A stretch of DNA of 32,054 nucleotides, taken from assembly GCA_021163295.1 (NCBI GenBank), contig JAGGXD010000201.1:1-32054 (forward strand), in the 5' to 3' direction. The first letter of the stretch is position 1. Each line of letters starts with the position of its first letter. Under the pieces are notes generated by a model. It was not told the origin of the DNA. It saw only the letters and a program-made list of their open reading frames with translations, and did no database searches. This document shows, in pieces, positions 2,787 to 19,745 of this stretch. The position numbers and the translations under genes were made by a program. The DNA is from Bacteroidales bacterium. GTDB taxonomy: Bacteria; Bacteroidota; Bacteroidia; Bacteroidales; VadinHA17.

Positions 2787-2819
2787 AAAAACCCTGATCT
2801 TTTCCGATCAGGGTTTTTT
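2787..2819. terminator. Probable bidirectional rho-independent terminator (tRNA on + / efflux operon on -)
   Basis: aaaaaccctgatc-ttttcc-gatcagggttttt: 13-bp stem with an A tract 5' and a T tract 3'; lies between the tRNA and the end of the minus-strand operon. Confidence 0.85.
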
Positions 2820-2854: not shown

Positions 2855-3565
2855 TTAAATAAATTTCTCCCTTTTCTGAAGATTGAAAAGTCCGAATAGC
2901 AGGAAAAGAATACTACCTGTCACCAGAAAAATTCTGTTTTTCAAGGCGATATTATGCCAGATAAGCTCATTCATGTCGCGGGGTAAGTTAAAAGGGTTCA
3001 GGAAGATATTCCACATGGTTCTTTCTACCATATCTGTGAGTATTAACAGAAATACACCGATAATAACCATTACTACCGCAGTGCCGTTCCCGTTTTTAAT
3101 AATAGTGGAAAACATAAACCCGAGACTGCCGATAAATAGGAGGGGAAACATTAGCTGACCGGCCATCTCAAATATCCTGACCGGGTAAATACCAACTGAA
3201 CCAATGACTGTAAACCCAATAACAATCAGGAAAGTGATGGCGTAGATCATTACCAGCCGTACCAGCCAAACCTTAAACCTGTAATCGGGAATACCAAATA
3301 ACAACTCAAGAACATTTGCGTCAACATCCTTTTGAATGCCAAACACAGTAGGGTAAAAGATTAAAAGTATTCCGGGGAACAACATAATGCCGTAAATAAA
3401 TGACTCATCCAGGGAGGCGTTATCGAAAATAGCCTGTATGCTTATAAATACATAGAAACCAAATGCAGCAAGCAAAAACCATATAAACTGACCGGCAAAT
3501 ATGATCTTCATGTTGTACTTGATGATCTTCCTGAATAAGGTCCAGTTATTTATAAGTTTTCGCAT
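2855..3565 (-). CDS. ABC-2-type transporter permease, about 6 TM
   Basis: 236 aa hydrophobic protein with ABC-2 permease layout; last gene of the efflux operon, directly after the RND-ABC fusion gene. Confidence 0.75.
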   Translation of the reverse strand: MRKLINNWTLFRKIIKYNMKIIFAGQFIWFLLAAFGFYVFISIQAIFDNASLDESFIYGIMLFPGILLIFYPTVFGIQKDVDANVLELLFGIPDYRFKVWLVRLVMIYAITFLIVIGFTVIGSVGIYPVRIFEMAGQLMFPLLFIGSLGFMFSTIIKNGNGTAVVMVIIGVFLLILTDMVERTMWNIFLNPFNLPRDMNELIWHNIALKNRIFLVTGSILFLLFGLFNLQKREKFI

Positions 3566-3601: not shown

Positions 3602-6600
3602 TTAATTGGTTGCCACAGTCATATCATTAAGCAGGCACAGGTATGCATCTTCAAGCATGGGCACTGCCGGTTCTGCCTCTTTGACGGGCTTCTTTTCAGA
3701 GATCATCCTGATTTTTATTTGATCCCCGTCCCGTATATGGGATACAATGTGCTGTTTGTTTTCCAGCTTTTCAAATTCTGAAGCCGGTACTTTAAAATGC
3801 CATACCAGTCCTTTCGCCTGCTCAGACATTTTATAAGGAGTTCCGGTGTACTTAAGCAAACCCTTATTAATTACTGCAACATTATTGCATGAACTGGAAA
3901 TATCTTCAATGATATGTGTGGAAAACAGCACGATACGCTCACGCCCCAACTCAACCAGCAAATTCCTGAATCGTATCCGTTCACGTGGATCAAGTCCTGC
4001 CGTTGGCTCATCCACCACCAAAATCCGTGGAAGGTGTATCAATATCTGGGCAATGCCAATCCGTTGTTTCATTCCTCCTGAATAGGAGCCTATTTTTTCA
4101 TTCCGGTGCCTGTACATTTGTACCGATTTAAGAACATATTCCAGGCGTTCGTAACGCATTTTACGATCATTAAGACCTTTTAAAATGGCTTGATAGTCCA
4201 GGAATTCCCAGGAAGTCATTTTTTCGTATGTGCCAAATTCCTGTGGCAGGTACCCGATAAGTCCCTGCAGCTCTTCTCTTTTTTCGAGAGTGTCGAAGCC
4301 ATTGATCCATATTTTTCCATAACTCTGGTCCAGGATACCACAAACAATGCGCATCAACGTTGATTTCCCGGCACCGTTGGGTCCGAGTAAACCATACATC
4401 CCTGTTCCAATATCGAGGGATACACCACTCAGTGCTTTAAAAGCTTCGTTTTGTTTTCCAATAACCGGAATTTGTTTTATAAGTCTGAAGAACCCCCTTC
4501 TCATTCCACCGAATTTTCCGGTAATACGGTCAATATTTACTTGTTCACTGTATAATACTTTTGAAATAGCGTACACTCCAAGTCCGCAATACCACAAAAC
4601 AGCCACTGTAATTACCATACCAATGTTATCCCAGTTAGTATAAAACCATACCAGGTTTATTGTGGGGATACCCCAAAGAAGGATTTTGTAAATAACCCGG
4701 TTTATCCGGGCGAATAATTTTTTCCCTGACGATTTTCTTTTATTCTCAAGGAGTTTTGAGAATGGTAAATAAAGTATAAATACAAACAGATGCACTAAAA
4801 CAGTAAGTACAACGATCCACAAATTGGATTCCAGGTAGAAATAGGTAAAGAAAATCAGGAAGCCGAAGAGCAGACTTTGCCATATAAGATCATTGAAGTC
4901 GCGAGCCCGGGTATATTCCTTTTCCAGCCCAATTCTTTTCCTGATCTTTTTCCCGCTTTTCCATTCCCTTTTGAATCTCGATTCTCTTTCGTAGATTTTC
5001 ACTAAACTTTGAATTTTAATAGACATAGGGTCGTCGTCAGAGATCAATTTTACCGAGGCTTTACGCAGGCTGGTCAGGACAAACCAGGTGCCTCCTGGTA
5101 TCAGGATAATAAGGAGTACATATAATATAAACTGCCATAAAATCGCATCTATTTTAAGATAGATTAAAACCGCCCCGGAAATCATCAGAACCAATTGAAA
5201 CAATTTTACTTTGCCGCTCAATTGACGAAACCAAATTATGCTGTTTTCCATCCCGAAATAAAAAGTTGGTATAAAAACCAGTGTCAGGATAGTACTCATT
5301 GTAAGTCCGCCAATGACCGTAATAGCAAAAGGGGCTCCGATCAGGCTAACATATTCTGCCTTTCCCATTGCCAATGGAAACATTGCAACAATTGTGGTTA
5401 TGGCTGTGATGAGTATAGGTCTTACTCTGGAAATGCCGGCAGCCATAAGAGCTCGTTCTTTACGATAACCTTGCTTTTGCATCATCCTGGCAAAATCAAT
5501 CAAAATAATGCCATTGTTTACAACTATTCCCAACAAGATTACAAAACCGGTAAGTGTATTGGCATTGAACAGACTGTTCCCTGTTAAAATTAAGGCAATC
5601 AGCGATCCTATTGCTGCCAGGGGAATGGAAAACATGAGCACAAAAGGTGTGGAAACCGACTCGAAAACAGCAGCCAGGATCATGAGTATCAGAAGAAAGG
5701 CTGCTCCTATCAGAAAGTAAAAATCGTGGAACAAATTTTCCTTATGTATTACTTCAACTGCAACACCGCCTGGCAGATTATACCCGGCAACAATATCATC
5801 TATTTCATAGCGGTAAGCTTCAAGCAGGTCTTTTGATTTTTCCGCTTCGCTAATAAAGGAGTAGGTTAGTTCAATCTGTTTTTCCTGGTTAACCCGGTTG
5901 ATACCAAAGAGACCGTTAGCAAAAACCAGATCAGATATCGTCTGAAGATCATGCACACCTCCTTGCTGATCAGGGATCTGTAGCTGTTTTAAATCCGTGA
6001 TCGTTTTTTCATTTTCCTCTTCCGTATCTGAGCTCCCTTTCTCTTTGATAATTATATCATACTCTTCAGTTCCCTGTTTAAATTGCAGTCCTGAAGAAAA
6101 TTCTTTTGAGAATGAGCTCAATTCAGATGATATACTATTTAGTCCTATACCATATTCAGCCATTAAAAGCTGGTTGAACCAGATTTGCACCTCGGGATTA
6201 TTATCGGAAATATTCAGGGAAGTTTCGTCTATAGATTCCAGATTATCGATATAATATTGAAGATCTTCGGCTACGCCTCGCATTACCTTAAAATCCTGCC
6301 CTTTTATCAGGATCCTTTCCTGTGAAGATCCAATTCCAAGAAATTTTTCGAAAGCCAAACCTGGATTATTTCCGGAACCCCGAAAACTCTTGCTGGAAGG
6401 AGGCGGTGTAAAGCTTATCTCGGCTGTAGAAATATTCTCAAGGTCGCCTTCCACAGCTTCTTTTACTGTTTCCAGATTTCGTCCGTTTATTTCTTTAAAA
6501 TCTTTCTGAAGCTTGAGGGTGAGTATAGCCTCTTCTTCTCTGATCTGACTAAGCAAATCCTTTTTTTCTGCCAGATCAGTTAGCCTGTTTTCAACTTCCA

Positions 6601-8323
6601 TCACTACCTTATCTGTGATTTGCAGTCCGGAGCCTGCCGGCATAGTCACATATATTTGGAATTCATCGTTTTCAACCTCGTTCAGGGAATTTACACTTAT
6701 AGCCATACTAACGATAATGGAGACAAAGAAAATAACAATGGCTCCAATTATGGTTCTGGCCGGGTAGCGCATGCTGGCTTTAAGAAGGACAATATAGATC
6801 TGGATGATACGGTTGTTTGTAGATACTTTTTCGAAAAATATTGTTTTACTGCTTCTTGCCTTCAACAAGAAATGAGTGGACATGGGAATCAGTAGTAGGG
6901 CAACGAACAGCGAAACTGTAAGGGTGGAAATGATGGATATACCTATATGGTTCCCCATAATTCTAACCATGAAATTAGAGGAAAAGAGAAACGGAAAAAA
7001 AACAACTATTGTGGTAATTGTTGCTGCCAGTATTGGGCGAAGAACTTCTTTTGTTCCTCTGATAACAGCCTCATTGGGCGAAAGCTTTTGGGCTGAAAGC
7101 CGGTAAATATTTTCAAGTACTACAATACTGTTGTCCAACAACATCCCTATGGCAAGTGCCATTCCAACCAGGGTTAATGTGTTTAAGCTGATGTTGTTCC
7201 AGTAGAAAAAGTTAAATGCAGTAAATACTGATATTGGTATGGCGAGTGCGATGAATGATACGATTCGTAGATTTTTCAGGAAGATCCACAACATGAATAT
7301 AGCCAGAACACCACCTATCAATGCGAGATTTATAATCTGGTTGATGTTTTTTTCCATTATCTCTGCAGAATTGCTCTGAACAACGATCTCTATATCTTTT
7401 TGCTTATACTTTTTGTTTAATTCCTTAAGGAGAGCTACTGTTTTGTGCGATAAGTCAATAAGATTGGCCTGCGAGTCATTGATTACCATTACCGTTACTG
7501 CGTCTTTGCCATTTACACGGCTCAGCGTGGTTTCTTCCTTAACGCCGAAATATATATCGGCTATGTCTTCCAGTAACACCGGACCGGGTGCAACAATAAC
7601 CTTTTCAATATCAGTGATTTTCTCATATTCGGCCTGCACATGTACAAAATATTGTTTGGCAGACTCGTAAATATGGCCAACGAAAGTTCTGTTCTGGTTG
7701 TTGCTTCTCAGTGCCGCAGAAATATTTGCCGGGGTGATATTATAGGCTTCACAGGCTTTTTTATCAAATCTTATTTCGATAGTTTTCTCATGTCCTCCAT
7801 ATACATTTACATTGGCAATACCGTCAGTGTTCTCAAGCTCCGGAACAATGTTCTGGTCGGCAAAATTTCTGACTCTGTCTGTGCCTCCGCCACCTCTAAC
7901 TTGCAGCTCCATAAATTGGTTATCCATTTGCTGGAGGTCAATTTTTGCTACATTGACAAAGAAATTATCAGGCAGGGAAGATTTTACCTGATTTATTTTT
8001 TCTTCGAGTCGCAGGAAAATGTATTTTGAGTTAACATTATCTTTGAAAGTTACAATGATGCTGGCCTGACGGGGATTAACGTAAGATTCAATATTATCAA
8101 TACCTTCCATGGTACCAATGGCTCCTTCCAATGGTATCACTGCCTGGTTTTCAACATATTCAGGATCTGCTTCAATAGTTGAATTAACCTGGACAAATAA
8201 AATTGGTAATTCAGCATTTGGATATAGCTCAACGGGTAATTGTTTATAAGAGACATATCCCAGAAGGGTAAGTCCGATAAACAACATACTGATGAGTATT
8301 TTCCTTTTTATTATAAACTCCAT
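3602..8323 (-). CDS. RND efflux permease fused to a C-terminal ABC transporter ATPase domain through an extra ~6-TM region
   Basis: Single 1573-codon ORF. Residues ~1-1035 are a complete RND permease (MLLDNSIVVLENIYRL; GIVVNNGIILIDFARMM; RPILITAITTIVAMFPLA). About 250-260 aa with three hydrophobic hairpins follow (~4465-5210). Then a full ABC ATPase: Walker A GPNGAGKST (~4356-4396), YSGGMKQRIGIAQ signature (~4045-4085), Walker B ILVVDEPTAGLDP (~3991-4034), FSTHI H-loop. Confidence 0.95.
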   Translation of the reverse strand: MEFIIKRKILISMLFIGLTLLGYVSYKQLPVELYPNAELPILFVQVNSTIEADPEYVENQAVIPLEGAIGTMEGIDNIESYVNPRQASIIVTFKDNVNSKYIFLRLEEKINQVKSSLPDNFFVNVAKIDLQQMDNQFMELQVRGGGGTDRVRNFADQNIVPELENTDGIANVNVYGGHEKTIEIRFDKKACEAYNITPANISAALRSNNQNRTFVGHIYESAKQYFVHVQAEYEKITDIEKVIVAPGPVLLEDIADIYFGVKEETTLSRVNGKDAVTVMVINDSQANLIDLSHKTVALLKELNKKYKQKDIEIVVQSNSAEIMEKNINQIINLALIGGVLAIFMLWIFLKNLRIVSFIALAIPISVFTAFNFFYWNNISLNTLTLVGMALAIGMLLDNSIVVLENIYRLSAQKLSPNEAVIRGTKEVLRPILAATITTIVVFFPFLFSSNFMVRIMGNHIGISIISTLTVSLFVALLLIPMSTHFLLKARSSKTIFFEKVSTNNRIIQIYIVLLKASMRYPARTIIGAIVIFFVSIIVSMAISVNSLNEVENDEFQIYVTMPAGSGLQITDKVVMEVENRLTDLAEKKDLLSQIREEEAILTLKLQKDFKEINGRNLETVKEAVEGDLENISTAEISFTPPPSSKSFRGSGNNPGLAFEKFLGIGSSQERILIKGQDFKVMRGVAEDLQYYIDNLESIDETSLNISDNNPEVQIWFNQLLMAEYGIGLNSISSELSSFSKEFSSGLQFKQGTEEYDIIIKEKGSSDTEEENEKTITDLKQLQIPDQQGGVHDLQTISDLVFANGLFGINRVNQEKQIELTYSFISEAEKSKDLLEAYRYEIDDIVAGYNLPGGVAVEVIHKENLFHDFYFLIGAAFLLILMILAAVFESVSTPFVLMFSIPLAAIGSLIALILTGNSLFNANTLTGFVILLGIVVNNGIILIDFARMMQKQGYRKERALMAAGISRVRPILITAITTIVAMFPLAMGKAEYVSLIGAPFAITVIGGLTMSTILTLVFIPTFYFGMENSIIWFRQLSGKVKLFQLVLMISGAVLIYLKIDAILWQFILYVLLIILIPGGTWFVLTSLRKASVKLISDDDPMSIKIQSLVKIYERESRFKREWKSGKKIRKRIGLEKEYTRARDFNDLIWQSLLFGFLIFFTYFYLESNLWIVVLTVLVHLFVFILYLPFSKLLENKRKSSGKKLFARINRVIYKILLWGIPTINLVWFYTNWDNIGMVITVAVLWYCGLGVYAISKVLYSEQVNIDRITGKFGGMRRGFFRLIKQIPVIGKQNEAFKALSGVSLDIGTGMYGLLGPNGAGKSTLMRIVCGILDQSYGKIWINGFDTLEKREELQGLIGYLPQEFGTYEKMTSWEFLDYQAILKGLNDRKMRYERLEYVLKSVQMYRHRNEKIGSYSGGMKQRIGIAQILIHLPRILVVDEPTAGLDPRERIRFRNLLVELGRERIVLFSTHIIEDISSSCNNVAVINKGLLKYTGTPYKMSEQAKGLVWHFKVPASEFEKLENKQHIVSHIRDGDQIKIRMISEKKPVKEAEPAVPMLEDAYLCLLNDMTVATN

Positions 8324-8337
8324 ATTGTCATCTTCAT

Positions 8338-11300
8338 TTATCCATTGGTTTCAACAGACCGGTTTCTCCTGAGCCGGTCAAGCAGGTCGTACAAACATGG
8401 AATAACCAATAGTGTCAACAGGGTTGAGGTAACCAGCCCCCCGATTACTGCCAAAGCCATGGGGGAACGTAAGCTTGCACTTTCTCCTACACCAATACTC
8501 AATGGAAGAAGAGCGATGATGGTTGTCAGGCTGGTCATTAATATAGGCCTTATTCGTTGCTGCACTGCTTTCACAATGGCATCAGCCCGGTCCACCCCTT
8601 CTTTTCTCAATTGATTGATCCGGTCCACCAGGATGATGGAATCATTCACCGCAATACCCACAAGGATAATTATCCCGATAATGGCCATAACGCTAATAGG
8701 TTTTCCCAGGAAAAAGAACAACAGAATAGTTCCTACAACAGCCAGCGGGATTGTTAACAGAATTGTAAAAGGGTGAATAAGAGATTCAAACTGGGAAGAC
8801 AAAACCATATATACAAGAACAATAGATAATAAGAGTGCAAAGCTGAGATTATTAACAGAATCTTTGCGTTTTTTCTCCTCGCCGGTAACCTGGATCCGGT
8901 AATTTGCGGGAAGTGATATTTCAGCAAGTTTCTCCACGATTTCTTCTGATATTTTATTCAGTGCCACACCCTTTTCCATTTGGGCAAATACTTTTCCGAT
9001 ACGTACCTGGTTACGCCGAATGATCTTTCTTGGGGCAATAGAGGTTTCAATGCTTGCAATCTCATCCAGCCTGATAATCTGTTCCCCATTCGATATGGTC
9101 ATATTCATAAACGAAGAAAGATCTTTCTCCGGCAGCCGGACAGTAATATCTCGCATTTCCCCGCCATCTTCCATTTTTCCTGCACTGGCACCCTCCAGCT
9201 TATTCCTTATTTTTTCCGTTACAGAGGCTACACTCAGGTTGAACATTCCCGCACGCATACGGTCAATGATCACGTCAATTTCCGGAGAACCATCTTCAAT
9301 GGAAGTTTGCACATTGAAAATGTGGGGCAATAGCATAATTTTATCACTGACTTCCCTTGTGAGTTGTTCAATAACTTTAAGGTCATCACCGCTTATTTCC
9401 ACTATAATCGGTGCCTCTTCGGTTCCCAGGATGCTTCTGAGAGCCATTTCATCCTGTATGTAATTAATTTCTAATCCGGGAATATCTGCAAAAACTTTGT
9501 CAATGGTTTCAATCAGGTGGTTGGAAGTATATTTTGCATTTTCCCCTAATTTTATTTTCATATAGCCGGAATTTTCATTTGTGAATATGGCTTGCTCATC
9601 TCCGGTAAGAATTGTTTCCGGACCTATATGACTGTATAATTCGTATTCCTGGCCTTCCAGCAGATCTTGAAGCACCAGCTCCATATTGGCTATTGTTGAT
9701 TCAGTACGTTCAAGCCGTGTACCTTCGGGCAGATTAATTTCAACATCAAACTCTCTTACATCGGCTTTGGGCATGAATTCGGTGCCCACCTTTGGAAAGA
9801 TAAGAACTGCCGTGCCAATAAGAAGTGCAGCACCTAAAATTACGAAGAGTTTATATTTCAATGCTTTCTTAAGAAATTTGCCATAAGCCGTGAACTTAAC
9901 CGATTTTCCAAAAGGAGGGGAGAGGCGATTCTTAAAAACAAGGTGATAAAGCATGGGAATGAGAAATATTGCGATAAGCAATGATGAGAGCAGGGAAAAA
10001 GCCACGGTCCATGCTTCGTCTTTAAACAATTCGCCTGATGCACCATGCAGATAAACTATGGGTAAAAACACAACGATGGTAGTAATGGTTGAAGCGATAA
10101 TAGCCCCGCTTACCTCAGATGCCCCTTTTATGGCTGCCTCTTTTACAGATAAGCCGCTTTCATGGTTTCTGAAAATATTTTCCATTACCACGATGGCATT
10201 ATCAACCAGCATCCCTGCTCCGAGTGCCAGTCCTCCCAGGGTCATAATGTTCAGTGTGAGATCTGCAAAATACATCATATTGAAAGTGGCAATGATTGAA
10301 ATAGGTATTGCCAGACTGATAATCAGGGTAGTGCCAAAACGTCTCAGGAAAATAAAAAGGACAAAAATGGCTATAACAATTCCAATCAGAGCCGTTTGTT
10401 CAACCTCCTTTATGGCAGAAATGATAAAATTTCCCTGATTGGCAACAATGTTCAGGTGATAACCGGGGAGAGCTTTTTCAATATCTTCAAGAGATTCGGA
10501 AATCTGCCGTACCGCTTTAACCGTGTTGAACCGGGTTTCCTTGTAAATTGAAAGACCTATGCATCGCTGGCCATTGAGCCTGACAATATTGACCGGCTTT
10601 TGGTTTACCATTTCAATTTCGGCGACATCTTTTAAAAACACAGGTGCTTTACCGATATTGGAGGTCCCGGTAGCAGGGTCTGTCTGTTCCACCGATCTGT
10701 AACCAACAATAATATTTTGAAAATCCTTTACCTCGTTCAGAATACTTACCCCTTTTACGACGTATTGAAGCCCCATTTCAGAAACGGTACCTCCGGAAAC
10801 ATTCCGGTTATAATTTTGAATTTGCCCGCTTATATCGTTCAGACTAAGATTAAATGCTTTTAACTTATAATTATTGGTGGAGATTTGGATTTCACTTTCT
10901 TCCTGTCCGGAAAGTTTTACGTCAGCTATACCCTCGAGTCTTACCAATTCATTCCGGATATAGTTTTCACCTACTTTGCGCAATTCGTTCATATCGGAAA
11001 TTCGTTCATGAGTCAGACCAATGAGCATGACAGGAGCAGTATTCGGATCATGTTGAGTAATATTCATTTCCTCAATTTCCTGCCCCTGACCAAATGACGA
11101 AAGGTTTTTCTGGAGGTCGAGAAATGCTTCATCCATGTCTGTATCCCAACTGTATTCAACATTTATTTGAGCTGATCCTACCATACAAATAGAGGAGACC
11201 TGGACTACACCCTTCTGCCTTATGGCAATGGATTCAATATTCCCGACATACTGTTTCTCCATTTCTTCAGGTGGTCGTTCCCCTGCTTTTATTTCAACGA

Positions 11301-11439
11301 AAATGCGAGGATTATTCAAGTCAGGAAACAGATCAACACCAAGCTTTTTGTATGAGATACCCCCAAGCAATACTATACCGAGGACGATCATGGAAATAGT
11401 TACCGGGAAATTTATGGCGAATGCTGTAAGTTTTTTCAT
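8338..11439 (-). CDS. RND-family efflux permease (AcrB-like/HAE type)
   Basis: 1033 aa; GMLVDNAIVVMENIFRN in TM4, GIAVNDSIILVDRINQLR, RPILMTSLTTIIALLPL; complete RND length. Confidence 0.97.
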   Translation of the reverse strand: MKKLTAFAINFPVTISMIVLGIVLLGGISYKKLGVDLFPDLNNPRIFVEIKAGERPPEEMEKQYVGNIESIAIRQKGVVQVSSICMVGSAQINVEYSWDTDMDEAFLDLQKNLSSFGQGQEIEEMNITQHDPNTAPVMLIGLTHERISDMNELRKVGENYIRNELVRLEGIADVKLSGQEESEIQISTNNYKLKAFNLSLNDISGQIQNYNRNVSGGTVSEMGLQYVVKGVSILNEVKDFQNIIVGYRSVEQTDPATGTSNIGKAPVFLKDVAEIEMVNQKPVNIVRLNGQRCIGLSIYKETRFNTVKAVRQISESLEDIEKALPGYHLNIVANQGNFIISAIKEVEQTALIGIVIAIFVLFIFLRRFGTTLIISLAIPISIIATFNMMYFADLTLNIMTLGGLALGAGMLVDNAIVVMENIFRNHESGLSVKEAAIKGASEVSGAIIASTITTIVVFLPIVYLHGASGELFKDEAWTVAFSLLSSLLIAIFLIPMLYHLVFKNRLSPPFGKSVKFTAYGKFLKKALKYKLFVILGAALLIGTAVLIFPKVGTEFMPKADVREFDVEINLPEGTRLERTESTIANMELVLQDLLEGQEYELYSHIGPETILTGDEQAIFTNENSGYMKIKLGENAKYTSNHLIETIDKVFADIPGLEINYIQDEMALRSILGTEEAPIIVEISGDDLKVIEQLTREVSDKIMLLPHIFNVQTSIEDGSPEIDVIIDRMRAGMFNLSVASVTEKIRNKLEGASAGKMEDGGEMRDITVRLPEKDLSSFMNMTISNGEQIIRLDEIASIETSIAPRKIIRRNQVRIGKVFAQMEKGVALNKISEEIVEKLAEISLPANYRIQVTGEEKKRKDSVNNLSFALLLSIVLVYMVLSSQFESLIHPFTILLTIPLAVVGTILLFFFLGKPISVMAIIGIIILVGIAVNDSIILVDRINQLRKEGVDRADAIVKAVQQRIRPILMTSLTTIIALLPLSIGVGESASLRSPMALAVIGGLVTSTLLTLLVIPCLYDLLDRLRRNRSVETNG

Positions 11440-12501
11440 CTACTTAATCACCTTTACTTTCGACCGGTTTCTAAGAGTTTCAAATCCTTTAGTTACAAGG
11501 CGATCATTTAAAGAAAGTCCTTTTAAAACTTCAGCTTTTTCCTGGTTTTCAAGTCCAATAGTTATTTCCCGCTGGAAAGCGGTGCCTTGTTCTACAACAA
11601 ATACTTTTTTACCGGTTGGACTGGAAAGGATAAGATCTTTACTAATAACAATAGTACTATCCTTGCTCCTGATAATGATATCAGCATTTACAAACATTCC
11701 GGGTTTAAGCTGGAGTAAGGGATTATTTATCAGTATTTTTCCTTTGAAAGTGCGGGTTTCTGTATTAATTGCCGGGGAGAGCTCATGGATCTTCCCGCTC
11801 AGTGTATCTTCCGGCAATGTGTAATTTGTTATTCTCACCGTCTGACCCGGTTTAACTGTTGACAGATACTTTTCGGGCAGGTTTGTTTCCATATACATCT
11901 TTTTATAATCAAGCAATTCCATCAGCATATCTCCTGTATTAATCCGGGTACCCGGTGTGAAATAAGGCAGGTCTACAATTACACCGGCAATGGGAGCCTT
12001 AATGCTCATCTTATCCAACATTAATTGTGCATTCCTGTAATCATATTTTGCATTGATAAAGGAGACTTCCGCATTTCGCATTTCGCGAAGTGTAACACCT
12101 CCCTTGTCAAAAAGTGATTTTTGTTTTTCATGTTCCTGCTGCGATATTTCAAGGTTTAACCTTTTTGATTCTATGGCAATATTGTTTTCATATTCCTTAT
12201 CCTCAAGGCGTATAAGTGTTTGTCCTTCTTTCACTTTATCACCTAATTTATATGGCTGTCCTGTTGTTGGATTGGTCATTAGTTTGTAATGGCCGGTAAT
12301 TTCTGCTTTTATCTCTGCTTTGCTTAGAGCCATTGCTGTACCTGTGGTATTTACATATTCCTCAATTGCCCCGGCTTTTATTTCCATAGTGGATACAGGA
12401 ATAGCAAGATCTGTTTCTGTTTTATCATCCGACCTGTTGCAGGAAGTGATAGTTAGCAGGCCAATAATTAAGATTGAAAGATTTGTAAGAAGTTTCATCA
12501 T
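11440..12501 (-). CDS. RND efflux periplasmic adaptor (membrane fusion protein), predicted lipoprotein
   Basis: 353 aa; lipobox-like LTITSC; barrel-sandwich and hairpin pattern (KEGQTLIRLEDKEYE ... IKAPIAGVIVDLPYFTPGTRINTGDMLMEL ... LKPGMFVNADI). Confidence 0.95.
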   Translation of the reverse strand: MMKLLTNLSILIIGLLTITSCNRSDDKTETDLAIPVSTMEIKAGAIEEYVNTTGTAMALSKAEIKAEITGHYKLMTNPTTGQPYKLGDKVKEGQTLIRLEDKEYENNIAIESKRLNLEISQQEHEKQKSLFDKGGVTLREMRNAEVSFINAKYDYRNAQLMLDKMSIKAPIAGVIVDLPYFTPGTRINTGDMLMELLDYKKMYMETNLPEKYLSTVKPGQTVRITNYTLPEDTLSGKIHELSPAINTETRTFKGKILINNPLLQLKPGMFVNADIIIRSKDSTIVISKDLILSSPTGKKVFVVEQGTAFQREITIGLENQEKAEVLKGLSLNDRLVTKGFETLRNRSKVKVIK

Positions 12502-12529: not shown

Positions 12530-14017
12530 TTATTTTTCTTTAAACAACTCTTCAGGTATTAAAGGTTTTTTATTAACAAAATCGTATAGTGTTTGAATTT
12601 TTAAATTCAGTAATTCAATTTTATAGTTGATAAGAGCCTGGACATAAGCCGTTTTCTTTCCAGACAGCTGAGTTTGATAAAGATTAAGATCCATGCCTGT
12701 CAGATCACCGTTCTGGTATCGTTCAAGGTTGATCTCGTATGTAAGCTGAGCATTTATTTCGTTTTGTTTAGCAATTTCAATTTGATTTTGCTGGTTGATC
12801 AGGTTTCTGTAAACTTTGCGGATATCAATAATAATTTGCTTTTTTTCCTCAGACAGATTTAGCTCCTGGGTTTGGACAACTGCCTCCTGGGCTTTAATGC
12901 GTGCCTCTCGTTCTCCCCAGTCAAATATCGGTATGTTAAACGAAACAGCTACCCTTGGGTTTTGAGTGGGGTTATTGTAGATGTCTGTGAAGTTTTCATT
13001 ATCGCCGGTTAAACCAATGGATAATTCCATATCTCCCCTGAACTCATTCAGGGCCTTAGTTCGGATTAGCTGAAACTGCGAAGATTGCAGGTCAATTTCA
13101 CGTTGTCGCAACTCCATTCTTGAGTTTAGCCCATAATTCACGGCTTTCTCCATGTCCACTTCAACCGGTGAAGTAGTGATGTCGGCTGCAATGAGTATTT
13201 CCTCATACAGGTCCATGCCCAGGAAGCGGATAAACTCGTCTTTAGCATTTTCAAGGGTTACCTCCTGATTTTGCAGACTTGATTTGGCTGTAGCCAGGTT
13301 TAACTCAGCCTGGTAGAGTTCTTCTCTTGCTGCAAGTCCGGCATCCACTTTGTTTTTAATTATCGAATAACTTTCCTCTGTATTTTCCAGCTCTTCCTGT
13401 GCAATAGTCAGATTCATTTGGGCCATATATACATTATAAAAGAATTGTGTTACATTTTTTTCAAGATTAAGTTCTTGAAGAGTATAGCTTATATGTGCAT
13501 TTTCGTAAGCCAGCTCAATTTCTTTCAGATCCAGTTTTGTTTGGTTGTATGTAAACAAAGGCTGGTTAAGACTCAGGTATAAGTAGTTAATAAATGATTC
13601 ATTATCGGATTGAACATTTTGAAAATCAGATTTGCTTTTTTGCCATCTAAGATTATTAACAAGCGATAATGTACCATCAGAGAACGGAATGCGCTGGTCA
13701 ACCCTGAATGTACCGGATGTCCTGAATGATTCGTTCGTGTACCATTCTGAGAACCGGGTGTCAAACTGCCGGGTTTTGCTGTATTCTGCCGGGGTTAGAT
13801 TGAACCTGAATTGTGATTTCTGGGAAGCTTTTTGTGCATTCAGCGACTCCCTGTAACGTTGGAGGTTCAGCATAGATATTTTAATATCAGGACTGTTAAC
13901 GCCGGCAATATCAATCGCTTTTTCGAGTGTAATCAAAGTTTGTGCCGGTAGAGTTAATGTCATTAGGGAAAGTGTGAACAAGATAACAGATCGCACTATT
14001 TTTTTTTCAGTACTCAT
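12530..14017 (-). CDS. TolC-family outer membrane efflux protein
   Basis: 495 aa; signal peptide, long helical repeats typical of TolC/OMF (LEKAIDIAGVNSPDIKI, QAELNLATAKSSLQNQEVTLENAKDEFIRFLG, VAVSFNIPIFDWGEREARIKAQEA). Confidence 0.95.
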   Translation of the reverse strand: MSTEKKIVRSVILFTLSLMTLTLPAQTLITLEKAIDIAGVNSPDIKISMLNLQRYRESLNAQKASQKSQFRFNLTPAEYSKTRQFDTRFSEWYTNESFRTSGTFRVDQRIPFSDGTLSLVNNLRWQKSKSDFQNVQSDNESFINYLYLSLNQPLFTYNQTKLDLKEIELAYENAHISYTLQELNLEKNVTQFFYNVYMAQMNLTIAQEELENTEESYSIIKNKVDAGLAAREELYQAELNLATAKSSLQNQEVTLENAKDEFIRFLGMDLYEEILIAADITTSPVEVDMEKAVNYGLNSRMELRQREIDLQSSQFQLIRTKALNEFRGDMELSIGLTGDNENFTDIYNNPTQNPRVAVSFNIPIFDWGEREARIKAQEAVVQTQELNLSEEKKQIIIDIRKVYRNLINQQNQIEIAKQNEINAQLTYEINLERYQNGDLTGMDLNLYQTQLSGKKTAYVQALINYKIELLNLKIQTLYDFVNKKPLIPEELFKEK

Positions 14018-14028
14018 GTTTTTTAATA

Positions 14029-17000
14029 TTATTGTTTAACAAATTTTATTGCATCTGCAACTACAACACGACTCTCTGAATTGTTTGTCAGCTCAACAAT
14101 TGCTGTATCAGGAGAAAAATAGTAGGAGCCGAGGTGGTTCCAGCCTGTTTGATCATTATTCAGCGAGAGAACCGGCTCGTCGGTTCCGTTATTATGATGA
14201 ATTACAAATTGGTATTCCCCCTTAGGTTTATCTTTTGACCGTCTCTGTTGTACATTTTCAATATAATAGTAAACATCATAATAAGCGGTTTCTTTTATTG
14301 GTACTTTCCAAATGGCTTTCCGGTCGCCTGATCCTGACCTTACATAACTGGCAGAACGGATATATTTACCATAAAATGAAGAGTTTGTTGTGGGGGTCCA
14401 GTTAATGGGTGCCCGCCAGGTTCGAAAGCCGGTATATTCTACATCGGATTCATCAGGAGGGAATAAAAGTTTAATTAACAAACCTTCACTCTCGGGCTGG
14501 ACCACAGAAAACTCAGGGTCTTCATTATCGATAATGATCTCATTTTCTTCTAAATTTCGAACAGGATTATCAGTTAACCTTTCATATTCCACCGATTGTA
14601 TCTTGAAATTATCTTCAAGTTTCGGAAAGTTTTTTGTAATTGTAGATGGAATATTTTTGGATGTCAATGTATGGATTGTCATCATTCGGGGATCATTATC
14701 GAATAAATAGCTAAGCTCCTTGGTTTGTCCCTTCTCCAGATAAATCACTTTTTCAACCGTATTATCCTCTTCCTCTTTACCTCCCTGGAATCTGCCTCTT
14801 CCCCTTCCCCTTCCACCTCCCTGGGAGCTCAATCTGAATCGTATCTTTATTACTCCATCAGCGTTTTCTAAATTAGACACTTTAAACTGAACCATGCTAA
14901 GAATCCGCTCGCCATCTTTCACGTTTTTTCCAATAATCGGACTGAATAAAAAACCCGGCATCTGAATACCGCTGAACCAGTTATCCATGTATTGGTTTAG
15001 ACTAAGGTTAAATTTTTCGTAAAGTTTTTCATTGAATTCTTTAAAACTGACTTTCCGGTAAAGATTTTCGGTAAAAAAATCATACAGGAACTTGTCAAAC
15101 TCTTCCTGTCCTGCTTTTGTTTTAATAATAGAGAATAAAACTTCGCCCTTTAGTTTAATTATATTATCAATAATTGTTTTTTGTTCCTTATCCAGCAACA
15201 ATTCACTAAAGCTTTTATATTGTAATGCCATGTTAGCTTTTTCATCTTCACTAACACCGGTAAAATCTCGCATCCATGTAAAGCGCTCATCTGAATTTGA
15301 GCTTTGAAGATAAGCTTCTACAATTCTGTTTATTATAGGCCAGTTTTCTGATTCGATATAGTTTGAGAAGTTGTAAAAAATTGGAAAAATAAAATAGTGA
15401 TTGAGTGTTTCTTCCGGTTGCCAGGTGCCCCTTCCACTACCTCTTTGCCAATTGGGTCGTCCCATTTCATTTATAAACAGGTTACAGAAATCGTTCAGGG
15501 CACGCACCTGGTATTGTTTATCTGTAGAACTTTCTTTAGACCATTTCGACCACCGTTTAAATTTTTTCACCTGTCCCTTAAAATCAACTTCCTGGGTTAG
15601 TAAACCTTTTTCAGGAAAGAAAATGATCTCGGGCTGCACGATCCCGAATCCACTTGACCAGATATGATTGTACGAGGCAAACTGAACAGGTGTTTCAACA
15701 ATACTAAACCGGGAGAATGGGTAGCTAAGGTTAATATTTCGCTGGTAGTCCTCAAACCGCTCAAATATTATCGCGGTGATAGTATCTTTTATTTCCGGCA
15801 GGGATCCGGAAAAAAAGTCGTGGCCTGTTTTATAATATACACTGAATTGAATATTGTTTGTGTCAATAGTTATTTTTTCATAATCTCCTATGGCAAGCGA
15901 TATTTGCGGCAGAGGGTGCTCCGGGGAAAACATCCATCCATTTTCTTTTTCCAGTATTTTCCCCTGGGAGACGGGAATAATATTGTGACTTGTTTGAACA
16001 TCCAGTGTAAATTCCGTAAAATCTTTGTGTAGCCAATTGGGGTTGGTTGAGCTGTATGTCACACCACTCTTTGGGTACCAGCCTGTTTCCTGGGTCAGCA
16101 ATACATATTCAGGGGAGATAAAACTGTACTTTTTGGGAATATTAAATATATCCGGTCCGTATTTTGTTTGACGTGTCTCTTCGTCAATATCAAGATAACA
16201 ATATGACTCAATAATATTGCCCCTGTATTTAATGGTTAGTTGAAATGTATCGGCAGAAGAAATTTCCCGGCCGGGTTGTATGATTATCAAATGTTGTTTT
16301 CGTAAATACTCAAGTTGATCTGTACCGGAGTGAATTGATTCAACTACAAGCCCCGGATTCAGGTTTAGAATAATTTCATCTGCAGATGAATTATTATTGT
16401 TTTGAAGTGTGATCTTTGAATCCACTTCAATAGTTTTACCGGTATGCTGCAAAGAAATATTATGACGTGTGATATCAAAAACCGGCTCAGAAGCATACCG
16501 GTTGTTGAGAGAAATGATAGAATCACGGGTTTGTTGATCGTGCTGGAATCTTTGGATATGGTTGTTCATGAGACCGATACTGAATGCAATAGCCAATATG
16601 CCAAAAATTAGCGATACATAATTCATGCCCTTTGATTGGGGTAGTCTTTTTAGGAGAAAAACAGTTAGAGAAATAAATCCGAGACCAAGAAAAAAATAGA
16701 TACCCCGGTGAACCAAAATTTCATTCAAATTACTAAAGCCTACAAATTCCGATTTCATCAGGGGGATATTGAAAGCCATGTAATCAAAGAGGTAGTACAC
16801 TTTGGTTTTCAGGTAAAAAAGTGTGAGGGCAATATAGCCAAGAAGCAGGATAAATGTAATAGCCTGGTTCCTGATGATGCTCATTAGCAGAAAAGATGCA
16901 CCTAAAATGAACATAAGAGTAGGAAGGCTGATAAGTAGTAAGTAGTAAATGTACGCCATAAAATCGGTTTCATGACCCTTAACAGCCATATTAAATATCA

Positions 17001-17388
17001 GCGCCATGAGCAGTACGATAAAATTAATTGCAAAGAAAACAACTAAATTGCCTACGGTTTTTCCAATAACATAATCTCCGTTAGTCATCGATCGCATATA
17101 AATTACCTCGGTGGTGTCCAGTTTTTTATCCCGTTTCAGAAAATCGGAAGCAAGAAAGACTGCGATTATTGCCTGCGCTACATTTAAAATTAGCAGATTA
17201 GCATAAGGAATACCTGCTGGAATAGCCACGATATTCCATTCCGGACCTTCAATGTTGGTCTGCGTCATCAGATTAAAGAAAAACAGAACGACCAGGGATA
17301 ATATTCCGAAAATGCGAAAAAACCAGCTGCGGGAGAGCGTTTTTACCTCGTATTTTGCAATGGAACGGATATGATATATCGAGATCAT
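14029..17388 (-). CDS. ABC-2-type permease fused to an M1-peptidase-like (degenerate) ectodomain and a golvesin-like C-terminal domain
   Basis: 1119 aa; N-terminal ABC-2 TM bundle, additional TMs, then an M1-like beta-rich region lacking HExxH, a Gly/Arg-rich stretch, and a C-terminus WNHLGSYYFSPDTAIVELTNNSESRVVVADAIKFVKQ resembling golvesin-like domains. Start overlaps the upstream ATPase stop by 4 bp (ATGA). Confidence 0.8.
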   Translation of the reverse strand: MISIYHIRSIAKYEVKTLSRSWFFRIFGILSLVVLFFFNLMTQTNIEGPEWNIVAIPAGIPYANLLILNVAQAIIAVFLASDFLKRDKKLDTTEVIYMRSMTNGDYVIGKTVGNLVVFFAINFIVLLMALIFNMAVKGHETDFMAYIYYLLLISLPTLMFILGASFLLMSIIRNQAITFILLLGYIALTLFYLKTKVYYLFDYMAFNIPLMKSEFVGFSNLNEILVHRGIYFFLGLGFISLTVFLLKRLPQSKGMNYVSLIFGILAIAFSIGLMNNHIQRFQHDQQTRDSIISLNNRYASEPVFDITRHNISLQHTGKTIEVDSKITLQNNNNSSADEIILNLNPGLVVESIHSGTDQLEYLRKQHLIIIQPGREISSADTFQLTIKYRGNIIESYCYLDIDEETRQTKYGPDIFNIPKKYSFISPEYVLLTQETGWYPKSGVTYSSTNPNWLHKDFTEFTLDVQTSHNIIPVSQGKILEKENGWMFSPEHPLPQISLAIGDYEKITIDTNNIQFSVYYKTGHDFFSGSLPEIKDTITAIIFERFEDYQRNINLSYPFSRFSIVETPVQFASYNHIWSSGFGIVQPEIIFFPEKGLLTQEVDFKGQVKKFKRWSKWSKESSTDKQYQVRALNDFCNLFINEMGRPNWQRGSGRGTWQPEETLNHYFIFPIFYNFSNYIESENWPIINRIVEAYLQSSNSDERFTWMRDFTGVSEDEKANMALQYKSFSELLLDKEQKTIIDNIIKLKGEVLFSIIKTKAGQEEFDKFLYDFFTENLYRKVSFKEFNEKLYEKFNLSLNQYMDNWFSGIQMPGFLFSPIIGKNVKDGERILSMVQFKVSNLENADGVIKIRFRLSSQGGGRGRGRGRFQGGKEEEDNTVEKVIYLEKGQTKELSYLFDNDPRMMTIHTLTSKNIPSTITKNFPKLEDNFKIQSVEYERLTDNPVRNLEENEIIIDNEDPEFSVVQPESEGLLIKLLFPPDESDVEYTGFRTWRAPINWTPTTNSSFYGKYIRSASYVRSGSGDRKAIWKVPIKETAYYDVYYYIENVQQRRSKDKPKGEYQFVIHHNNGTDEPVLSLNNDQTGWNHLGSYYFSPDTAIVELTNNSESRVVVADAIKFVKQ

Positions 17389-18287
17389 AATGCTTGAATT
17401 ATTTCTCTGGTTTCCTGTTTGTTTTCCATAAAATGAATGTATGCATGCTCCAGGTTAGGATCGATTTTTTTTGCCCTGAAATCGTTTAGTTTGTCGGCAA
17501 CAACCTGTATTTCCCAACCACCTTCAACAGGAATACTGGAAACAACAGGGTATCTTTTATTCAGTTCAAGGTAATCTTTTTCATTTGCTTGCACAAGCCA
17601 GACATGCCCTTTGGTTTGTTGGATAAGTGTGTCGGGTGGACCTGAAAACACCAACTCCCCCCGGTCGAGCAAAGCCATTTGATTACATGTGCTTGAAATA
17701 TCCCCTACAATGTGAGTGGAAAGGATGATGATAATATCTTTTGTACTCATTGTTGAGAGCAGGTTTCTGAATCGTATCCTTTCCTCGGGATCGAGGCCGG
17801 TAGTAGGTTCATCAATAATTATGATTTTTGGCTCATTTATAAGTGCCTGTGCAATACCAAGCCGCCTTTTCATTCCACCCGATAGTTTGCTTGCTTTACG
17901 GTCCCGGGCTTCAAATAAACCAACTTCTTCGAGCATCTTTTCCACGGCAATGTTCCGGCTGTGGCGGTTTTTCATGCCGGATAAGCGGGCGGCATAATCC
18001 AGGAATTCAGAGGTGCGTAATTTTGAAAAAAAGCGAAAATCCTGTGGAAGATAACCCATCATAGCACGTATCTCTTTACGGTTTTTAATCAGGTCCAGTT
18101 GATTTACTTTTACCTGACCTGTGCTTGGTTTCATCAGTGTAACCAGAATTCTCATCAGGGTTGATTTTCCGGCACCGTTCGGACCAAGTAATCCAAACAT
18201 TCCGTTCTCAATGTTCAGGGTTACCTCTTTCAGGGCATTGTTTCCGTTCCGGTAGGTCTTACCCAGATTTTCAATTGTTATTTCCAC
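17385..18287 (-). CDS. ABC transporter ATP-binding protein
   Basis: 300 aa; GLLGPNGAGKSTLMRIL Walker A, KLSGGMKRRLGIAQ signature, IIIIDEPTTGLDPEERIRF Walker B, STHI H-loop. Confidence 0.97.
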   Translation of the reverse strand: MEITIENLGKTYRNGNNALKEVTLNIENGMFGLLGPNGAGKSTLMRILVTLMKPSTGQVKVNQLDLIKNRKEIRAMMGYLPQDFRFFSKLRTSEFLDYAARLSGMKNRHSRNIAVEKMLEEVGLFEARDRKASKLSGGMKRRLGIAQALINEPKIIIIDEPTTGLDPEERIRFRNLLSTMSTKDIIIILSTHIVGDISSTCNQMALLDRGELVFSGPPDTLIQQTKGHVWLVQANEKDYLELNKRYPVVSSIPVEGGWEIQVVADKLNDFRAKKIDPNLEHAYIHFMENKQETREIIQAL

Positions 18288-18443: not shown

Positions 18444-19745
18444 TTATCCTCTCTTTTCCTTAACGATAGTTTTTACAGCGTTTACAAATTTATCCAATTC
18501 CCTGGTAGTTGTATATAGATTAGGAGTTACTCTTATTCCGTGAATATTTTCCCAGTTAATAACAATTGTGTAAATTTTATATTTGTCAAGCAGTGCTACC
18601 TGAATATCAGCTGGGTCAATTCCCTCAATGGCAAAATTTCCTAAACCGCATGCATATTCAGGCTTAAAAGAGGTAAAGAATTTAGCCCCTGTTATTTCAT
18701 TTATTCCGTTCATCCAGTAGTTTTTCAGGTATCTGAGTCTTTCTTCTTTTCTTTTCGCTCCAATCATATAATAAAAATCAATAGCCTTGCCAATTGCCAG
18801 CTCAGCCGGGAACGAACGTGTACCCATAGCTTCAAATTTAATAATATTATCTGATTGGGGATCGCCCGGAGCTGTGAGAGGCCATATCTTCTTTATTTTG
18901 TCTTTCTTAACATAAAGCATACCGGTGCCAAAAGGTGCATAAAGCCACTTATGCAAGCTTGTGCCATAGTAATCAACTTCAGTATCAGGAATTTTAAATT
19001 CGAAATGTGCAAAAGCATGGGCTCCATCGAGCATTACTTCAATACCTCGTTTATGTGCTTCGCGTGCTATCTTTTTAGCAGGTAATATCTGACCTGTCCA
19101 GTTTATTACATGCATTATCTGAATTATCTTTGTTTTTGAGGTGAATGCATCAACATAAGTTTTAACAATAAGATCATCATCCTCAACAGGTTGGGGTAGA
19201 TTAATCCATTTCAGTACAATACCATCCCGTTTTTCTCTTTGTTTCCATGCATTGATCATATTTGGATAGTCTTGTTTAGTAAGCACCACTTCATCTCCTT
19301 TTTCAAGTTCAAGTCCGAAAATTACAGTTTCAAGCGCTTCAGTTGTGTTTCTCTGAATAGCGATCTCTTCAGATGAACATCCTGCCAGTTTAGCCAGCGA
19401 TTCTCTAACCGATTCTCTTCCTTTTCCAAATACATGCCACATATAATATGCAGGACCTTCATTACATATACGGTTATATTTTTCAAATGCATCCTGAACT
19501 ATTTTGGGTTGCGGACAAACACCACCATTATTCAGATTCATCATATTTGATGATGAGGTAAAGGAGCGTTGAACCCAGTACCAAAAATCCTCATCAGTAG
19601 CTACTTTCTCCGGTGGTAAAAGTGAAACACGGTTCAGGGCTTTTTCAGCTTCACTACCATAAGCACTTTTAAACATTGAACTTAGTGCCAGCGTGCCGGC
19701 GGCAGTCAATGAATTTTTCAGAAATTTTCTTCGGTTTGATTTCAT
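18444..19745 (-). CDS. Aminotransferase class V-fold PLP-dependent protein, with Tat-like signal
   Basis: 433 aa; NRRKFLKNSLTAAGTLALSS twin-arginine leader; NTTEALETVIFGL, MLDGAHAFAHF, YYGTSLHKWLYAPFGTGMLYV with putative PLP Lys. Confidence 0.9.
   Translation of the reverse strand: MKSNRRKFLKNSLTAAGTLALSSMFKSAYGSEAEKALNRVSLLPPEKVATDEDFWYWVQRSFTSSSNMMNLNNGGVCPQPKIVQDAFEKYNRICNEGPAYYMWHVFGKGRESVRESLAKLAGCSSEEIAIQRNTTEALETVIFGLELEKGDEVVLTKQDYPNMINAWKQREKRDGIVLKWINLPQPVEDDDLIVKTYVDAFTSKTKIIQIMHVINWTGQILPAKKIAREAHKRGIEVMLDGAHAFAHFEFKIPDTEVDYYGTSLHKWLYAPFGTGMLYVKKDKIKKIWPLTAPGDPQSDNIIKFEAMGTRSFPAELAIGKAIDFYYMIGAKRKEERLRYLKNYWMNGINEITGAKFFTSFKPEYACGLGNFAIEGIDPADIQVALLDKYKIYTIVINWENIHGIRVTPNLYTTTRELDKFVNAVKTIVKEKRG

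Follow-up and report, generated by a model that had tools for sequence, protein, structure and literature searches.

Gene content of the locus

The window, by which we mean the entire stretch of 32,054 nucleotides analyzed here (contig JAGGXD010000201.1 of a Bacteroidales genome assembly), contains a cassette of seven genes on the reverse strand, in the order ATP1, ABC-2/M1-like permease, TolC, adaptor, RND1, RND-ABC fusion and PERM2. ATP1 (17385..18287), recognized by Pfam and by comparison of loci, is a stand-alone ABC ATPase, and the next gene (14029..17388) encodes an ABC-2 permease of 1119 amino acids with M1-peptidase-like and golvesin-like domains (Pfam), in which a motif search found no HExxH. 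These are followed by a TolC-family outer-membrane channel (OEP, 12530..14017; Pfam), a periplasmic adaptor (MFP, 11440..12501), for which the RND_mfp match was over the cut-off, and RND1 (8338..11439; open frame and Pfam), an RND permease of 1033 amino acids that is the second one in the cassette. The RND-ABC fusion protein (3602..8323, 1573 amino acids) was identified by its open frame, Pfam matches and homologs in relatives, and PERM2 (2855..3565), an ABC-2-like permease of 236 amino acids, is the last gene. Downstream of PERM2, there is a terminator-like hairpin with a 13-bp stem (2787..2818, same strand; one found, compared to 0.4 +/- 0.8 in shuffled sequences), which likely marks the end of the operon. 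The presence of RND, adaptor and OEP genes together in one operon corresponds to the tripartite RND efflux arrangement. The original prediction concerned the fusion and gave an incomplete account of the locus, missing both the second RND permease and the second ABC module.

The same seven genes in the same order were found in all 14 loci that could be read across the entire cassette, including the window. The genes that flank it in the window, groEL and an aminotransferase gene, do not recur beside the cassette in the other loci, and we therefore regard the seven genes as the unit. The aminotransferase, of class V and cysteine-desulfurase-like, is encoded at 18444-19745 on the same strand, 156 bases upstream of the cassette. 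In several genomes of the family (loci L074, L075, L089 and L090), the cassette adjoins an LpxD-like gene and, in some of these, also rimP/nusA/infB-like genes, all named from the starts of their sequences only.

A conserved single-frame fusion

The frame of the fusion gene opens with ATG and runs through 1573 codons with no internal stops. The RND permease domain (residues 1-1023, 5255..8323) gives a match to ACR_tran over residues 2-1023 with 560 bits (cut-off 28), covering profile positions 3-1018, that is, nearly the whole profile, and ABC_tran matches residues 1299-1442 with 92 bits. The two parts are connected by a linker of about 267 amino acids (residues 1024-1290), for which a total of six membrane helices is predicted. 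Thus, the original prediction of a single 1573-codon frame that joins a full RND permease to an intact ABC ATPase was borne out, along with its coordinates, lengths and list of motifs, and the ATPase motifs are kept in the aligned orthologs.

A search of 118 relatives identified the fusion in 37 genomes, with the full-length copies showing 49-94% identity; a 38th listed carrier (G091) was rejected because its match, at 27% identity, is to an ordinary RND permease. Searches across the class and the phylum added two genomes of the same order (G224 and G430), two from another family of the class (G316 and G433) and two from another class of the phylum (G590 and G796). The homologs from the other family and the other class are full-length, at 52-56% identity. 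The frame runs on unbroken in all 38 genomes (32 + 6) in which the RND-ABC junction falls inside a contig. Five further copies are incomplete, none of them being split at the junction: those of G021 and G084 stop at contig edges, that of G043 is in two pieces on two contigs where the contigs end, and that of G030 has a frameshift near residues 411-422 in addition to a contig edge. An apparent split in G009, with the two parts (L082 and L083) lying 2.3 Mb apart, was discarded as a scaffolding gap rather than a biological separation, both halves ending in N runs.

The source genome is a draft assembly in 272 contigs, so that a chimeric assembly or a missed stop joining two genes had to be considered. 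The conservation of the fusion across genomes refutes this reading, the chance of which we consider negligible: 38 genomes, at 49-94% identity, have an unbroken junction, there are conserved residues inside the linker, and the broken copies are accounted for by contig edges, N runs and a distant frameshift. The fusion is not an artifact, as had been argued from the window sequence alone, and separate RND and ABC genes in close relatives, which had been named as the sign of a misreading, were seen in none of the 38 genomes with the junction covered.

Proton-path residues of the RND part

The TM4 aspartate of the GMLLDN motif (residue 397, 7133..7135), which in the ortholog alignment and the comparison of RND proteins is equivalent to D407 of AcrB, had been pointed out as retained, and is indeed invariant in the 29 aligned orthologs. 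Both RND proteins of the cassette contain this residue and the TM11 arginine (in the RPI motif), and asparagine stands at the places of the second TM4 aspartate and the TM10 lysine of AcrB. The same asparagine pattern is present in two other RND proteins of the source genome (L003 and L005); it is a subfamily trait and hence not diagnostic. Given that the TM4 aspartate and TM11 arginine are kept and that the asparagine pattern is shared with L003 and L005, proton coupling of the RND part appears plausible as judged from these residues.

A nucleotide-binding domain apparently split by a membrane insert

Across diverse loci, conservation of the fusion protein is highest in its ATPase, with 67-72% identity compared to 48-61% for the RND part. 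The bulk of its nucleotide-binding domain, together with a C-terminal extension, comprises residues 1291-1573 (3605..4453), as delineated by Pfam, motifs and AlphaFold, and includes the Walker A motif GPNGAGKST (4358..4384), the ABC signature YSGGMKQR (4061..4084), the Walker B motif with the D-loop (RILVVDEPTAGLDP, 3986..4027) and the H-loop region (IVLFSTHIIEDI, 3899..3934). Walker A, the Q-loop, the signature (SGGMKQR), the Walker B glutamate (VVDEPTAGLD) and the H-loop (STHI) are conserved in the 29 aligned orthologs, except that the last of these motifs are missing from one ortholog that is truncated by the end of its contig.

When the core of the fused ATPase is compared to a profile of its stand-alone relatives, the alignment begins only at profile position 16-17, and the first strand and the A-loop are absent from their usual place in front of the core. 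A 12-residue stretch of the linker, MSIKIQSLVKIY (residues 1100-1111, 4991..5026), lies apart from the remainder of the domain. As found by alignment and profiles, it follows the I-x-I-x-x-L-x-K-x-Y pattern that is usual for this element, and all 29 aligned orthologs have its VKIY sequence unchanged. Of 28 linkers with a match to the profile of the ATP1 N-terminus, 27 are matched at this site. We then joined each 12-mer of the linker (about 255 of these) ahead of the core and scored the products with an independent profile. The 1100-1111 segment was top-scoring in all 28 orthologs, which are kin rather than 28 independent tests, adding 8.1-13.2 bits compared to 3.4-9.5 bits for the best other place.

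Hydropathy over the alignment of 29 orthologs predicts two transmembrane helices before the first-strand stretch (at about residues 1040-1083, 5075..5206) and four after it, the latter within an insert in the ABC domain (residues 1112-1290, 4454..4990) that was delimited also by profile scoring. In the predicted topology of the linker, the positively charged loops face the side that has to hold the ATPase. Since, judged by sequence, the linker contains the first strand and the A-loop tyrosine that the ATPase core lacks, we conclude that the nucleotide-binding domain is probably split, right after the A-loop, by a membrane insert of about 180 residues with four helices. Accordingly, the stretch that had been described as extra membrane-like sequence does contain predicted membrane helices but is not only that, since it also carries the first strand of the ABC domain. 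In G224, the fusion (L087:1665-6584) reaches 1640 amino acids, the cytosolic loop that follows the A-loop strand being longer by about 33 residues.

In the AlphaFold model of the fused ATPase (19 alignment rows, deliberately trimmed so that the first strand was not fed in), the core adopts the fold of a nucleotide-binding domain with a pLDDT of about 90, and its Foldseek matches include TM_1403, NosF and TM0544. The linker region is modelled with pLDDT below 60 and the membrane region is uninformative; only four near-identical sequences were available there, so that the model is silent on the packing of the first strand. By sequence, the nearest solved relatives of the fused ATPase are the ABCA phospholipid exporters, followed by NosF; the ATPases of both are served by ABC-2-type membrane domains. 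We know of no ABC domain with a comparable membrane insert.

Candidate partners of the two ATPases

PERM2 was assigned to the ABC-2-like permeases by the pattern of its alignment and by weak ABC2_membrane matches of its orthologs (Pfam, 5e-5 and 5e-4 at best), the copy in the window giving no such match; its co-occurrence with the fusion was considered as well. No match to PERM2 was found in the PDB, and profile comparison with the other ABC-2 permease of the cassette (hhalign) detected no similarity (probability 0.4%). In the profile search of 118 relatives, PERM2 was found in 33 genomes, all 33 of which also carry the fusion, and it lies directly downstream of the fusion wherever a locus was read past the end of the fusion gene; in the fusion carriers without a PERM2 match, the contig ends there. 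Because PERM2 occurs only with the fusion, it is likely the partner of the fused ATPase, as far as gene neighborhoods can tell. The original prediction, which envisaged that the fused protein could in principle couple to both the proton-motive force and ATP, overlooked that the next gene encodes an ABC-2-like permease, a constant companion of the fusion and a simpler candidate for what the ATPase serves.

In the phylogenetic tree of the ATPases, the fused, ATP1 and stand-alone sequences form three separate clades, with the fused ATPase and ATP1 being about 40-46% identical. In six stand-alone loci that we examined, the ATPase gene adjoins a gene for a permease of about 1200 amino acids, which Pfam shows to be of the ABC-2/M1 kind in two of these. 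The HExxH motif is kept in the permeases of all six two-gene ABC relatives (L135-L140), whereas 16 of the 17 cassette permeases, including the copy in the window, lack it, the remaining one having HETKH. Judging from this difference, the cassette permease is most likely a pseudo-peptidase that has kept the M1 fold without the active site.

Horizontal transfer

Two loci from another class of the phylum (L097 and L098) contain the complete cassette. When the fusion proteins are placed in a tree, those from the other class nest inside the family of the window, with strong support for the surrounding forks, and this topology indicates that the fusion was transferred horizontally. The cassette probably moved as a unit given that the gene order in the other class is identical. 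A search of plasmids found no homolog of the linker, and a search of viral contigs found no fusion.

A possible envelope-spanning machine and competing readings

The sequence shows a conserved fusion with intact catalytic motifs in a fixed cassette that also has a second RND permease, an adaptor, TolC, a second ATPase and two ABC-2-type permeases. We tentatively favor, at somewhat less than even odds, a scheme in which the products of all seven genes make up a single export machine spanning the envelope, with the fused ATPase powering PERM2 and an RND heterotrimer expelling the substrate via TolC. In favor of this scheme are the fixed gene order, the constancy of PERM2, the conservation of the fused ATPase and its affinities to ABCA and NosF, the two RND genes in one operon, the TM4 and TM11 residues of both RND proteins and the complete cassette in another class; the weak profile matches of PERM2 and its lack of a PDB match speak against it. 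RND1 and the fusion protein, as the two-gene arrangement suggests, would pair up as a mixed trimer similar to MdtBC, the active form of which has been reported as a B2C heterotrimer (PMC12802153). By analogy with this MdtABC-like gene pair, a 2:1 ratio appears conceivable, and if there were two fusion chains per trimer, these would bring along precisely the pair of ATPase domains required for an ABC dimer. On the cytosolic face, the fused ATPase, through a putative contact with PERM2, would drive this permease, which could transfer a substrate of hydrophobic or lipid-like nature to the periplasmic side; the proton-driven RND trimer would then take the substrate from PERM2 and expel it through the adaptor and TolC. 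The covalent fusion would hold the ABC step beside the RND step, and ATP1 with the pseudo-M1 permease could be a second ABC module of the same machine.

The two ABC modules might instead form one heterodimeric exporter, in which the fused ATPase and ATP1 dimerize and power the pseudo-M1 permease together with PERM2, the whole being anchored to the RND pump. That both ATPases and both permeases always occur together, and that the two ATPases, at the level of identity given above, each form one clade, fits such an arrangement. Many heterodimeric ABC exporters, however, have one degenerate site, whereas here both ATPases have complete canonical motifs. In addition, the two permease families show no profile similarity, and the relatives of ATP1 outside the cassette adjoin an ABC-2/M1 permease alone, so that this pair needs no second ATPase. 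We consider this reading unlikely although it is the strongest of the competitors. Less probable still is a dually energized RND pump, in which the fused ATPase would drive or gate the cycle of the RND trimer, adding ATP to protons in one polypeptide. The ATPase is joined covalently to the RND part by way of six additional membrane helices, four of which lie within the ATPase domain, and this would suit such a role, as would the intact ATPase and RND residues, but we know of no ATP-driven RND protein that could serve as a precedent, the three-fold symmetry of RND trimers is at odds with ABC ATPases, which work as dimers, and the adjacent, ever-present ABC-2-like permease already explains the ATPase. 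We give even less credence to the idea that the ATPase domain serves mainly in regulation or assembly, sensing ATP and locking the RND complex but not energizing transport: there are ABC domains that have no part in transport, and nothing more specific speaks for it here, whereas the complete catalytic motifs conserved in orthologs and the constant ABC-2-like partner speak against it.

Relation to other export systems

The combination of the parts, all of which belong to known families, and the split ABC domain are the new elements. We found no description of an RND-ABC fusion in the open-access literature searched, although an uncharacterized database annotation may well exist, and the passages of a large review of tripartite systems that contain "fused to" or "gene fusion" name none. 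The fusion therefore appears to be undescribed, in agreement with the original prediction, which knew of no characterized protein with such an architecture. RND pumps and ABC exporters are regarded as two distinct energy classes in envelope export, and a conserved, horizontally transferred cassette that fuses one to the other offers a natural system for measuring how ATP and proton energy cooperate across two membranes. The fusion is also a test case for the ability of an ABC domain to tolerate a four-helix insert right after the A-loop, and the cassette poses the question why an M1 peptidase fold persisted after the loss of its active site.

The closest parallels each cover a part of the cassette. 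MdtABC and MuxABC share with it two different RND genes and an adaptor in one operon, together with a TolC-type channel, but, to our knowledge, there is no ATPase fused to either RND protein and there are no ABC genes in those operons, unlike here. The ABC-2 or type V exporters (ABCA, NosDFY, NatAB-like) resemble it in the affinities of the fused ATPase and in the adjoining ABC-2-like permease; in the cassette, however, the ATPase resides on the RND chain and its domain appears to be split by the four-helix insert. ATP1 and the 1119-amino-acid permease resemble the two-gene systems of Bacteroidota that consist of an ABC ATPase and an ABC-2/M1 aminopeptidase, which differ in keeping HExxH and to which the cassette adds RND genes. 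MacAB-TolC likewise joins an ABC ATPase with an adaptor and TolC; according to one published account (PMC8277102), the N-terminal ATPase of MacB is fused to its own permease domain rather than to an RND protein. Pfam gave no match to a MacB/FtsX-type membrane domain in the cassette proteins. RND-OEP fusions are similar to the RND-ABC fusion in that an RND permease carries a partner of the efflux path fused at the C-terminus, the partner being an outer-membrane-channel domain instead of an ATPase. The source genome itself encodes such a protein, a permease of 1450 amino acids with a C-terminal OEP domain (L001:1477-5826).
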